A stretch of DNA of 64,000 nt. It comes from Syntrophomonas sp. DTU019. GTDB taxonomy: Bacteria > Bacillota > Syntrophomonadia > Syntrophomonadales > Syntrophomonadaceae. The DNA lies in assembly GCA_913757435.1 (NCBI GenBank), contig CAJYDM010000005.1, positions 124,001 to 188,000 of the forward strand, written 5' to 3'. The notes below the pieces were generated by a model. It saw only the letters and a list, made by a program, of their open reading frames with translations. It did not search any database and was not told the origin of the DNA. Positions 2,529 through 58,605 of this stretch are shown one piece after another (position 1 is the first letter of the stretch; the number at the start of each line of letters is the position of its first letter). Position numbers and translations under genes: made by a program.

Positions 2529-2673
2529 GGGGGACCGCAGACCTTGTGAAGACTGAACCATGCAACGGTGGCACAATACCAATCATTCATTATTCGTCCA
2601 TGTTATCCTTAACCTTGCGTAGCTTTGCTGTGCATCAACTGTTAACGCAATTTAATGACGGAGGAAATGATCT

Positions 2674-3012
2674 GTGAAGAAAGTAGTTATGTTTACTACC
2701 CAGACTTGACCCCATTGCAAGCCGGCCAAGGAGTTCCTTGCGCAGAACAAAATAAGCTTCGTCGAAAAGGATGTCAATACTGATCTAGAGGCCCAGGCGG
2801 AATTCACCCGGCGCGGTCTGCGCGGAGTACCCTCATTTCTGATAGGGGATGACGTAGTGGTCGGACTTGATAGGAACCGCATACTGCAACTGGTTGATCA
2901 CCGGGTGGTGGAGTGCTCGCAGTGTCATGCCAAACTCCGGGTTCCCACCGATCGCGGCCCAATCAAAGTGACCTGTCCCCAATGCAAGGATGTTTTTGAC
3001 TGGGCTCCTTGA
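2674..3012 (+). CDS. glutaredoxin-like selenoprotein with C-terminal zinc ribbon (in-frame TGA = Sec)
   Basis: A GTG start follows a good ribosome binding site (GGAGG at 2660-2664). The frame runs 112 codons if the TGA at 2707-2709 is read as selenocysteine. The protein begins MKKVVMFTTQT-U-PHC, so Sec is residue 12 and Cys is residue 15, exactly the CxxC of a glutaredoxin/NrdH fold. The fold continues with the cis-proline motif RGVPSFLIG (Pro53). Residues 81-104 add a zinc-ribbon pattern (Cys81, Cys84, Cys101, Cys104), which glutaredoxins normally lack. A short hairpin lies 22 nt past the UGA as a bacterial SECIS would. Likely role: cytoplasmic thiol/selenol redox exchange. Alternatives are a nonsense pseudogene or a sequence error, but the rest of the frame is intact and the TGA falls on the catalytic position. 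Confidence 0.8.
2727..2740 (+). promoter_or_regulatory. candidate bacterial SECIS hairpin
   Basis: CAAGG (2727-2731) pairs with CCTTG (2736-2740) around the tetraloop AGTT. The loop starts 22 nt after the UGA at 2707-2709 and has a G among its first two bases. Both fit the general rules for bacterial SECIS elements bound by SelB. A competing pairing GCAAG/CTTGC (2717-2721 with 2737-2741) is possible. Function is inferred from position and shape only. Confidence 0.5.
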
Positions 3013-7637: not shown

Positions 7638-7712
7638 TCCTCGATAGCTCAACGGTAGAGCATCCGGCTGTTAACCGGAGGGTTGTAGGTTCGAATCCTA
7701 CTCGGGGAGCCA
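7638..7712 (+). tRNA. tRNA-Asn (GTT)
   Basis: Complete cloverleaf: acceptor TCCTCGA pairs with TCGGGGA, anticodon GTT at 7670-7672, TTCGAAT in the T loop and encoded CCA. Length is 75 nt. Confidence 0.97.
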
Positions 7713-7723
7713 AAGAATACTAC

Positions 7724-7754
7724 AGGCGGCTACCAAAAAGGGAACCGCCTTTTG
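7724..7754 (+). terminator. terminator after tRNA-Asn
   Basis: AGGCGG pairs with CCGCCT and is followed by TTTTG, shortly after the tRNA-Asn CCA end. Confidence 0.6.
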
Positions 7755-7814
7755 TATGCCCTTGACGGTTTAAGGGAAAGCTTAAAAATCGGCACCAGAA
7801 TACGATTATTTTCC

Positions 7815-7843
7815 TTGACCTTTGATAGGATATTTTATATACT
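7815..7843 (+). promoter_or_regulatory. sigma-A promoter of tRNA-Met
   Basis: TTGACC (7815-7820), a 17-nt spacer and TATACT (7838-7843) lie 25 nt upstream of tRNA-Met. Confidence 0.8.
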
Positions 7844-7868
7844 AACTCTTGCGGGGTTGCCGCACCAC

Positions 7869-7944
7869 GGGCCTATAGCTCAGTTGGTAGAGCTACCGGC
7901 TCATAACCGGTTGGTCCCAGGTTCGAGTCCTGGTAGGCCCACCA
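7869..7944 (+). tRNA. tRNA-Met (CAT), elongator type
   Basis: Cloverleaf with acceptor GGGCCTA/TAGGCCC, anticodon CAT at 7902-7904 and encoded CCA, 76 nt. The first acceptor pair is G-C, so it is not the initiator. A CAT anticodon could also belong to a lysidine-modified tRNA-Ile; the anticodon arm does not fully decide this, but the acceptor stem resembles clostridial elongator tRNA-Met. Confidence 0.88.
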
Positions 7945-8053
7945 TATTCAGTAATCAGAGATCAGAGGGCGGAAGTCGGATTTATTTCAACCATCACCGC
8001 AACAAACAGGTAATTTTTTTGCTATCCGACATCCGTCGTCCGACATCTGCTAA

Positions 8054-8128
8054 GGCCCCTTGGTCAAGCGGTTAAGACACCGGCCTTTCACGCCGGTAAC
8101 AGGGGTTCGAGTCCCCTAGGGGTCACCA
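8054..8128 (+). tRNA. tRNA-Glu (TTC)
   Basis: Acceptor GGCCCCT/AGGGGTC, anticodon TTC at 8087-8089 and encoded CCA, 75 nt. The next tRNA starts at the following base. Confidence 0.96.
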
Positions 8129-8204
8129 GGGCGATTAGCTCAGTTGGGAGAGCACCTGCCTTACAAGCAGGGGGTCGGCAGTTCGAGCCTGTCATCGCCC
8201 ACCA
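8129..8204 (+). tRNA. tRNA-Val (TAC)
   Basis: Acceptor GGGCGAT/ATCGCCC, anticodon TAC at 8162-8164 and encoded CCA, 76 nt. It directly abuts tRNA-Glu with no spacer, so both must come from one precursor. Confidence 0.96.
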
Positions 8205-51283: not shown

Positions 51284-51539
51284 TACCGTGCCTTATTGAC
51301 ACCATGGAAGAACCAGGCATCACAAACATCTGAATCCTGGGCTGAATTGAATCATTACACCCATCAGGATTAAGAGGGCACAATAAACTCCTTTCCAAAA
51401 ATACGGGGAGGCACGACCGTTTCCAGCCATACCCACAGGCCTAACACTCATAACCGAAGCTTTAGACTGAAAGGCTCGGAGTTATATGCAATTGTCATAT
51501 TAGTCATATTATCATACTTTATGACATCCGGATAGTATT

Positions 51540-55922: not shown

Positions 55923-55926
55923 CAAA

Positions 55927-56036
55927 TCTTATCAAGAGTGGTTGAGGGACGGGCCCGATGAAACCCGGCAACCGCCTCCTTTATGGAGGTATGGTGCTAA
56001 ATCCTGCAGGAGTAGTACTCCTGAAAGATGAGAGAG
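55927..56036 (+). ncRNA. SAM-I (S-box) riboswitch
   Basis: The conserved core is complete: CTTATCAAGAGTGGTTGAGG, then GACGGGCCCGATGAAACCCG, GCAACC, GGTGCTAA and the closing GAAAGATGAGAG. It binds S-adenosylmethionine and, through the terminator just downstream, turns off the metH operon when SAM is high. Confidence 0.97.
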
Positions 56037-56112: not shown

Positions 56113-58605
56113 ATGGCTGCATGGGATGTATCTGCATTACTGAAAAAGAGATGCTTGATTATGGATGGTGCTATGGGCACCATGTTGCAGAAACACGGTA
56201 TGCAGCCGGGTATGTGTCCGGAATTGTTCGCCATACAGAATGAAGCCCTTCTGGAGGACATCCATTATCAATATGTAAATGCCGGGGCTGACATCATCGA
56301 GACCTTCAGCTTCGGTGCCAATTACTATAAATTGCAGGCTTACGGCCTGGAAGATATGGTGGCAGAACTGAATCAAGAGGCGGTCCGGGTGGCCAGGCAG
56401 GCCAGCGCTGGCAAAGCCCTGGTGGCAGCTTGCATAGGCCCTACCGGGCAGCTCTTAAAACCCATGGGTGCAGTCGATTTTGATGACCTGTTTAAGGTCT
56501 TTACCCAGCAGATCATCGCCTGTGAAAAGGCAGGAGCAGATCTCATCTGCATCGAGACCATGACTGACATAGGGGAACTGCGGGCTGCGGTGATAGCCGC
56601 GCAGGACTGCTCTAAGCTGCCCATCATCGCGCATATGAGCTTCGAAAACGGAGGCCGCACCATGATGGGCACCGATGCTGCCACCGCACTGTATATCCTG
56701 GAAGCCCTGAGCCCTCTGGCTATCGGGGCTAACTGTTCTGGCGGAGCCAGGGAGTTATTGCCGGTCATTGCAGCCATGGGACAATTGAGTGACATATACC
56801 TATCGGTAGAGCCCAATGCCGGGCTGCCGTTGCTGGTTGATGGTAATACAGTGTTTCCTGAGTCTCCTGAAGAGATGGCCGAACAGGCCTTGCGCCTGCG
56901 CCAGGTGGGGGCCAATATCATCGGCGGTTGCTGCGGAACCACCCCGGAGCATATACAGGCTATGGCAGCGGCCTTGCGCGGTATGGCCCCGGTCAAGCGG
57001 ATCTCAGCTCACAGCCGAGCCCTGGCTTCACGTTCTCGGGCGGTTTTAATCGGTGACAGCAATGAATTGGCCTTTATCGGTGAACGCATCAATCCCACCG
57101 CCCGCAAGAAACTAGCCGCAGATATCAAGGCCGGGCAGATGAACCTGGTAGTGGAGGAGGCCCGTCTGCAGGTGGAGAGCGGAGCTCCCATTTTGGATGT
57201 GAACATGGGGGTCCCCGGTATTGACGAAGCTGAGGCTATGACCCGTGCGGTCCTAGAGATACAGGCGGCGGTCGACCGGCCCATTTCGATTGATTCCACC
57301 CGCCCGGCGGCCATTGAGGCCGGGCTCAAGAACTATGTAGGGAGGCCGTTGATAAACTCTACCACGGCTGAAGATAAACAATTGGATGTGATCCTGCCCC
57401 TGGCTAAAAAATACGGGGCCGCCGTTTTAGGCTTGTGCCTGGATGAGAAAGGCATACCCCCCAAGGCTGAGGACAGACTGGAACTGGCCAGGAAGATATA
57501 TCAGCGGGCCAGGTTTTACGGCTTAAGGAATCAGGACATCTATATCGACTGCCTGGTTACCACTGCCGGAGCTGAGCAAGCCCGCGTCATGGAGACCCTG
57601 AAAACCATGCAAATGGTCAAACAAGAGCTGGGAGTGGGCACAGTCCTGGGGGTGAGCAATGTTTCCCACGGGCTGCCGCAGCGAGAAGTGCTGACTTCCA
57701 CCTTCCTGGCCATGGCCTGGGCTGCAGGGCTGGATCTGCCCATTATGAACCCGTTCGACGACAGAGTGCGGGATGCTACCCGGGCGGCGGCAGTGCTCTT
57801 GAACCGGGATCCCGGAGCTGGGGCATATATCGAGCATTATCAAAACCAGCCGAGATCCGCCAATACATCAGTAAGGCACCAGCTGTGCCAGAGCTGCAAC
57901 ATACCCGATCTGCTCATAGCGGCTGCACCCGAAAAAGGTATGCCAGTGCCTGAAAAAAGTGCGCCAGCACTTCCCCAGGAGGGCCTGAGCAGGTTGGGCC
58001 GGGCAGTTCTGGAGGGGGATCAGCAGAACATCATCCACCTGCTAAAGGAAGCATTGCCCGGCCGCGATCCTATGGCGGTGGTCAATCAGGATCTCATCCC
58101 GGGCATTGAGGAGGCCGGTTTGCGTTATGATCAAAAGGTGTACTTCCTGCCCCAGCTGATGATGGCGGCTGAGACCATGAAAAAGGCTTTCGGTTATTTG
58201 AAACCGCTCCTCACCGAGGGTGCTCTGCATTCCCGGGGTACCGTGGTGTTGGCCACTGTGGAGGGGGATATTCACGACATCGGCAAAAACATCGTGGCTA
58301 TAATGTTGGAGAACTATGGCCTTAAGGTGATAGACCTGGGCAAAGACGTGCCGGCAGCAGCCATTCTGCAAGAGGCTGAACGCCACCAGGCTGATATAAT
58401 CGGGTTGAGCGCCCTGATGACCACCACCATGCCGCGCATGGCAGAAGTCATCGCCGGGGTGCGAGAGCAGGGTCTGAGATGCAAGGTGATGGTGGGAGGA
58501 GCAGTATTGACCCAGGAATATGCCGACTTGATCGGCGCTGATGGATTTGCAGCAGACGCCCGCAAAGCAATCACGGTTGCCACCGGGCTGGTGGATATAA
58601 ACTAA
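56113..58605 (+). CDS. metH: cobalamin-dependent methionine synthase, short form without reactivation domain
   Basis: 830 residues. Domain order: homocysteine-binding barrel (1-300; zinc ligands in ANCSGG near residue 206 and GGCCGTTPEH near 272), pterin-binding barrel (about 310-590; INPTARKKL, DVNMGVPGIDE), B12 cap and B12 domain (about 640-830) with DIHDIGKN, whose His ligates cobalt. The AdoMet-binding reactivation domain of E. coli MetH is absent, so reactivation must come from another protein. AAGGGAGGA precedes the ATG. First gene after the SAM riboswitch. Confidence 0.95.
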   Translation: MAAWDVSALLKKRCLIMDGAMGTMLQKHGMQPGMCPELFAIQNEALLEDIHYQYVNAGADIIETFSFGANYYKLQAYGLEDMVAELNQEAVRVARQASAGKALVAACIGPTGQLLKPMGAVDFDDLFKVFTQQIIACEKAGADLICIETMTDIGELRAAVIAAQDCSKLPIIAHMSFENGGRTMMGTDAATALYILEALSPLAIGANCSGGARELLPVIAAMGQLSDIYLSVEPNAGLPLLVDGNTVFPESPEEMAEQALRLRQVGANIIGGCCGTTPEHIQAMAAALRGMAPVKRISAHSRALASRSRAVLIGDSNELAFIGERINPTARKKLAADIKAGQMNLVVEEARLQVESGAPILDVNMGVPGIDEAEAMTRAVLEIQAAVDRPISIDSTRPAAIEAGLKNYVGRPLINSTTAEDKQLDVILPLAKKYGAAVLGLCLDEKGIPPKAEDRLELARKIYQRARFYGLRNQDIYIDCLVTTAGAEQARVMETLKTMQMVKQELGVGTVLGVSNVSHGLPQREVLTSTFLAMAWAAGLDLPIMNPFDDRVRDATRAAAVLLNRDPGAGAYIEHYQNQPRSANTSVRHQLCQSCNIPDLLIAAAPEKGMPVPEKSAPALPQEGLSRLGRAVLEGDQQNIIHLLKEALPGRDPMAVVNQDLIPGIEEAGLRYDQKVYFLPQLMMAAETMKKAFGYLKPLLTEGALHSRGTVVLATVEGDIHDIGKNIVAIMLENYGLKVIDLGKDVPAAAILQEAERHQADIIGLSALMTTTMPRMAEVIAGVREQGLRCKVMVGGAVLTQEYADLIGADGFAADARKAITVATGLVDIN

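Follow-up and report, generated by a model that had tools for sequence, protein, structure and literature searches.

Gene organization

The window, which is the whole 64-kb stretch of DNA analysed, contains on its plus strand a short gene that very probably encodes a selenoprotein composed of a glutaredoxin (Grx) domain and a C-terminal zinc ribbon (Table 1). Direct reading of positions 2674-3012 confirmed several observations of a preliminary description of this DNA: a single internal TGA (2707-2709) falls on the position of the first active-site cysteine of a Grx, the frame is open on both sides of this codon, a good ribosome binding site precedes the start codon, and a four-cysteine ribbon follows the Grx domain. 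When the internal TGA is read as selenocysteine (Sec), the product has 112 residues (VKKVVMFTTQTUPHCKPAKEF...CSQCHAKLRVPTDRGPIKVTCPQCKDVFDWAP). The frame ends in a second TGA (3010-3012). This codon is replaced by TAG in two relatives (G018 and G001), so that the terminal TGA is a true stop and only the codon at 2707 is recoded. TGA also terminates 15 of the 46 long open reading frames (ORFs) of the 64-kb window, which shows that the codon is not reassigned genome-wide.

Table 1. Features of the predicted selenoprotein gene (window positions).
Feature	Position	Strand	Basis or remark
Predicted selenoprotein gene, Grx domain and C-terminal zinc ribbon, 112 residues	2674..3012	+	GTG start, TGA stop
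Ribosome binding site GGAGGA	2660..2665	+	Read directly; 8 bases 5' of GTG
Predicted Sec codon UGA, residue 12 of TUPHC	2707..2709	+	TGA/TGT/TGC alignment across 38 Sec and 5 Cys genes
Predicted resolving Cys15	2716-2718	+	
Glutaredoxin domain, residues 4-74	2683..2895	+	PF00462, TIGR02196; model pLDDT 93; 7c10 Z 15.2
Predicted zinc ribbon, residues 77-112, CxxC (81, 84) and CPxC (101, 104)	2902..3009	+	Conserved Cys; sub-threshold ribbon matches
bSECIS-like hairpin, apical loop AGUU (2732-2735), 22 nt past UGA	2725..2743	+	

Elsewhere in the window, a molybdenum/tungsten cofactor riboswitch (51372-51493, minus strand, 78.7 bits), a SAM riboswitch immediately 5' of a long ORF at 56113 (55926-56034, plus strand, 97 bits) and a cluster of four tRNA genes for Asn, Met, Glu and Val (7638-8204, plus strand) were observed.

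Conservation of the UGA codon and distribution of the fusion

TGA occupies the same codon, within an open frame, in 34 of 34 further Sec-form fused homologues, which come from seven coded families and from Sedimentibacter/UBA6113. The preliminary description had proposed a search for homologues aligned at residue 12, and both Sec-aligned and Cys-aligned relatives were found: codon 12 is TGA in 38 Sec genes, of which 35 are fused and 3 single-domain, and TGT or TGC in 5 Cys-form fusions. Comparison of the window gene with its two nearest relatives gave a dN/dS of ~0.1 for the region 3' of the UGA, which indicates purifying selection on this region and on the two-domain protein as a whole.

A scan of named genomes yielded five loci. 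The same two-domain protein with the TGA is found in a Syntrophomonadaceae MAG, two Sedimentibacter genomes and UBA6113, while one locus (L027), in another phylum, encodes a Cys-form Grx of a single domain; the protein is the same in L023 and G018. Of 398 genomes sampled evenly across the phylum, 13 contain the full-length fusion, each with one TGA. The fusion occurs in 6 of the 63 genomes of the window's own class, and the 83 genomes of the class of G166 contain 20 Sec fusions and 4 fusions without an in-frame stop, the latter with an intact ribbon and with codon 12 as TGT or TGC. In the class of G091, four genomes were covered. The fifth Cys-form fusion is that of Acetoanaerobium noterae (NZ_CP154629.1, 422743-423066). 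The preliminary description had regarded the fusion as apparently unusual for so small a selenoprotein. It is indeed much rarer than the single-domain Grx, but it is not unique, given the 13 of 398 phylum genomes and the ~24 genes among 83 genomes in one class.

Relatives with the Grx domain alone are common in the phylum in both Sec and Cys forms. Within genus g32, single-domain Sec forms occur in two genomes (G048 and G196), and several other genomes carry the fused and the short copy together. A genome from the window's own family (G012; L087, G012:C186:62163-62420) retains the Sec Grx part, followed by two TAG codons at the start of the ribbon, so that the ribbon has apparently been lost there. 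Sec and Cys copies coexist in two genomes (L130 and L132 in G454; L131 and L133 in G449), and the Cys copy is devoid of the downstream hairpin. In a tree of 43 rows, many of whose inner branches are weakly supported for so short a protein, the Cys rows lie at two separate places among the Sec rows, which requires two Sec/Cys changes. Subject to the position of the root, this pattern agrees with Sec having been replaced by Cys twice.

A hairpin downstream of the UGA

Each Sec gene contains a hairpin around a core GAGUUU, with the loop starting ~22 to 24 nt past the UGA. The 27 nt spanning the hairpin were compared with randomly recoded versions in which synonymous codons leave the protein unchanged. 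All 38 Sec genes have z values below zero (mean -1.96; mean MFE -7.2 kcal/mol), whereas a hairpin is virtually lacking in all five Cys genes (mean -0.3 kcal/mol). The difference is significant (Mann-Whitney p 2e-6), with the p values counting related sequences as independent and the hairpin overlapping coding sequence. Apart from the one that overlaps the hairpin, other windows along the gene average -0.5 to +0.4 in the first 21 Sec genes. The stem columns 21-35, 22-34 and 23-33 are changed on both sides in 8 cells, a count reached by none of 500 shuffles, and an alternative register of the hairpin shows fewer two-sided changes.

The signal varies among members. For the window gene alone, in which the register is slightly shifted, the hairpin is marginal against synonymous recodings (p 0.05), and when folded as a single sequence it does not stand out from dinucleotide shuffles (z -0.3 to +1). 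Three Sedimentibacter-type sequences have a weak hairpin (-3.2 kcal/mol, z ~-0.7), and that of G012 is little better than chance. Judged from the excess of stability over synonymous recodings, its absence from Cys forms and some compensatory changes, the family as a whole carries a bSECIS-like element, for which the evidence in the window gene by itself is marginal.

Sec machinery of the host

The host genome (3.2 Mb, recorded as 100% complete) contains selA, selB, selC and selD, the four genes that the preliminary description had named as a check. selA and selB are adjacent (C1:723665 and C1:725117), tRNA-Sec is located at C1:735624 (72 bits; cut-off 47) and selD at C1:740746. Among the genomes tested that encode a Sec-form protein, selB scores above its curated cut-off in 17 of 17. 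The host SelD (L018, G000:C1:740746-741669) is itself a selenoprotein, with an in-frame TGA in AAGUASKIGPG. Decoding of the UGA at 2707 by SelB and Sec-tRNA, which would be aided by the hairpin that starts ~16 nt later, is strongly supported by these sequence comparisons.

Domain structure and fold

The window protein matches the Grx profile PF00462 with 52.8 bits, well above the gathering cut-off of 22.9, and is thus a member of this family. The best NCBIfam model, TIGR02196 (YruB family), scores 63.0 bits against a curated cut-off of 88.55, and NF041212 (Uxx-star) scores 42.2 bits against 66. The window protein stays below the cut-offs of all NCBIfam models, every matching Grx model included, so standard annotation probably truncates such genes at the UGA or misses them. 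Its scores with Pfam ribbon models are likewise all below the cut-offs (Zn_ribbon_4, 20.7 versus 30.3 bits), and sub-threshold zinc-ribbon matches are found in most members. The residues invariant in 18 fused forms include residue 12, P13, C15, P53 and G64 of the Grx domain and C81, C84, C101 and C104 of the ribbon; the latter form the two conserved CxxC knuckles expected of a zinc ribbon.

An AlphaFold2 model calculated with 18 fused relatives has a mean pLDDT of 93. The Grx half superimposes best on cGrx1 of Clostridium oremlandii (Z 15.2, rmsd 1.2 over 75 residues, 43% identity), followed by Bacillus cereus BC3987 and NrdH redoxins; Grx3 is also among the matches. The rows of the structural alignment (VIA-align) cover residues 1-76 almost alone.

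Ribbons of similar sequence (CPxC...LRVP..KG....TCPxC) also close other, Sec-free frames of Firmicutes, among them L038, L040 and L043, and the ribbon tail is probably a recruited module. Zinc ribbons of the LRVP/LRLP type terminate the Sec-free frames of L038, L039, L040 and L043 (~135-170 residues), with hydrophobic stretches upstream. These ribbons are a possible source of the fused one.

Predicted function

We conclude, with a probability of about 0.85, that the window gene encodes a selenoprotein, a dithiol redoxin of the Grx/NrdH fold in which the UGA at 2707 is predicted to be decoded as Sec. The protein most likely shuttles electrons to other proteins. By analogy with C. oremlandii Grx1, the selenolate of Sec12 would attack a disulfide, a sulfenic acid or another oxidised target, and Cys15 would resolve the mixed selenosulfide. 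The ribbon probably binds Zn and, as in the zinc domain of thioredoxin 2, may act as a structural or target-docking module.

A search for one ligase family, the GshA/GshF-type PF04262, detected no member in 18 host genomes, with a positive E. coli control, which makes a classical dependence on glutathione doubtful and its synthesis by the usual GshA/GshF enzyme unlikely. Since no GshA-type enzyme was found in the hosts, the oxidised form would probably be returned to the reduced state by a system resembling thioredoxin reductase or by another low-molecular thiol, and not by glutathione of the host's own making. No conserved operon or partner gene was found across 21 loci; the gene stands alone, which points to a general reductant that serves several clients and not to a single dedicated partner.

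Thirteen of the 18 hosts possess MsrA, which can therefore be one client, not the only one. An in-frame TGA is found in five of these MsrA genes (G129:C3:84444, G017:C37:17796, G091:C22:21354, G388:C77:7065 and G346:C1:2251303), which probably encode Sec MsrA alongside the zinc-ribbon Sec Grx. MsrA as a dedicated client was rejected: it is missing from five of the 18 hosts, and the MsrA gene of the window genome contains no in-frame TGA.

A cooperation of the Sec site with the ribbon, in which oxidation would pass between the selenosulfide and the ribbon cysteines to form a selenium-dependent zinc redox switch, is a speculation to which we assign a low probability. If true, oxidation would release zinc or alter client binding in anaerobes that lack the usual glutathione synthesis, and the protein would be more than a simple reductant whose tail is structural.

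Alternative explanations

The TGA could in principle be an ordinary stop, either in a decaying pseudogene or through a sequencing artefact of a TGC or TGT Cys codon. The standard code reads an in-frame stop here, TGA is one base away from the Cys codons, and real Cys-form fusions exist. The recurrence of this TGA in 34 further fused genes of independent genomes, the dN/dS of ~0.1 downstream and the confinement of the hairpin to TGA genes render this explanation extremely improbable. A chance TGA is excluded, since every other Sec-form homologue has the same codon in an open frame and the sequence beyond it is constrained, and an error at 2707, which the preliminary description had raised as a possible refutation, is very unlikely given the independent occurrences of TGA at that codon. 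A UGA decoded in another way, by insertion of Cys or Trp or by general read-through, has nothing specific in its favour. It would have to be reconciled with the complete Sec machinery including tRNA-Sec, with SelB in every tested carrier, with UGA acting elsewhere as a normal stop and with a hairpin tied to the UGA, and we regard it as highly unlikely.

The same selenoprotein might instead function mainly in metal or metalloid handling, with UxxC and the ribbon cysteines binding or passing Hg, As, Cu or Zn and redox activity being secondary. Six soft-metal ligands (Sec12, Cys15 and the four ribbon Cys) lie within 112 residues, and a review ties most of a recent, largely transporter- or metal-related set of prokaryotic selenoproteins to heavy metal and metalloid resistance (PMC13188914). 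However, no metal-resistance gene was recognised among the inspected neighbours, the fold and the UPxC motif match those of disulfide reductases, and single-domain relatives exist without the ribbon. Metal handling as the main role is improbable, and the Sec-dependent redoxin is the reading that we retain.

Relation to known proteins and implications

The closest characterized counterpart of this redoxin is Grx1 of Clostridium (Alkaliphilus) oremlandii OhILAs (PDB 7c10, 7c12 and 7c13), which shares the fold and a UPxC motif with native Sec and also comes from an anaerobic Firmicute. In contrast to the window protein, cGrx1 (an 84-residue construct) has no zinc ribbon. Both cGrx1 and MsrA, the partner that it reduces, contain Sec natively (PMC7642778, PMC4479559). 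The window protein likewise resembles YruB (TIGR02196) and Uxx-star (NF041212), both among its best profile matches, whereas these models span residues 3-74 only. In thioredoxin 2 (TrxC), too, a redox domain of thioredoxin fold is combined with a zinc domain, which has two CxxC motifs (PMC8945050). TrxC differs in that the zinc domain is N-terminal and the Cys motif is WCGPC, and it matches with 16 bits only, in the ribbon part. A modulating effect on activity has been proposed for the additional zinc domain of thioredoxin 2 (PMC8945050).

A catalogue of 2006 lists selenoprotein glutaredoxins of Alkaliphilus, Moorella and Geobacter (PMC1794560), and such proteins also appear in reviews of 2022 and 2026 (PMC9312934, PMC13188914). 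The zinc-ribbon form was not found described in the open literature, although some of the catalogued selenoprotein Grx may themselves carry the ribbon. No paper was found there that combines glutaredoxin, zinc ribbon and selenocysteine, or selenoprotein, Desulfosporosinus and glutaredoxin. The fused proteins, which occur in many anaerobic bacteria, apparently constitute an unnamed, Sec-dominated subfamily of a known protein type.

Comparison of Sec copies with Cys copies, which are devoid of the hairpin, tests the bacterial SECIS signal clearly. Where one genome contains both copies, they form a natural pair with which the retention of Sec can be studied. With this fusion, the prokaryotic selenoproteome apparently gains a Sec-dominated domain architecture that is as yet unnamed.
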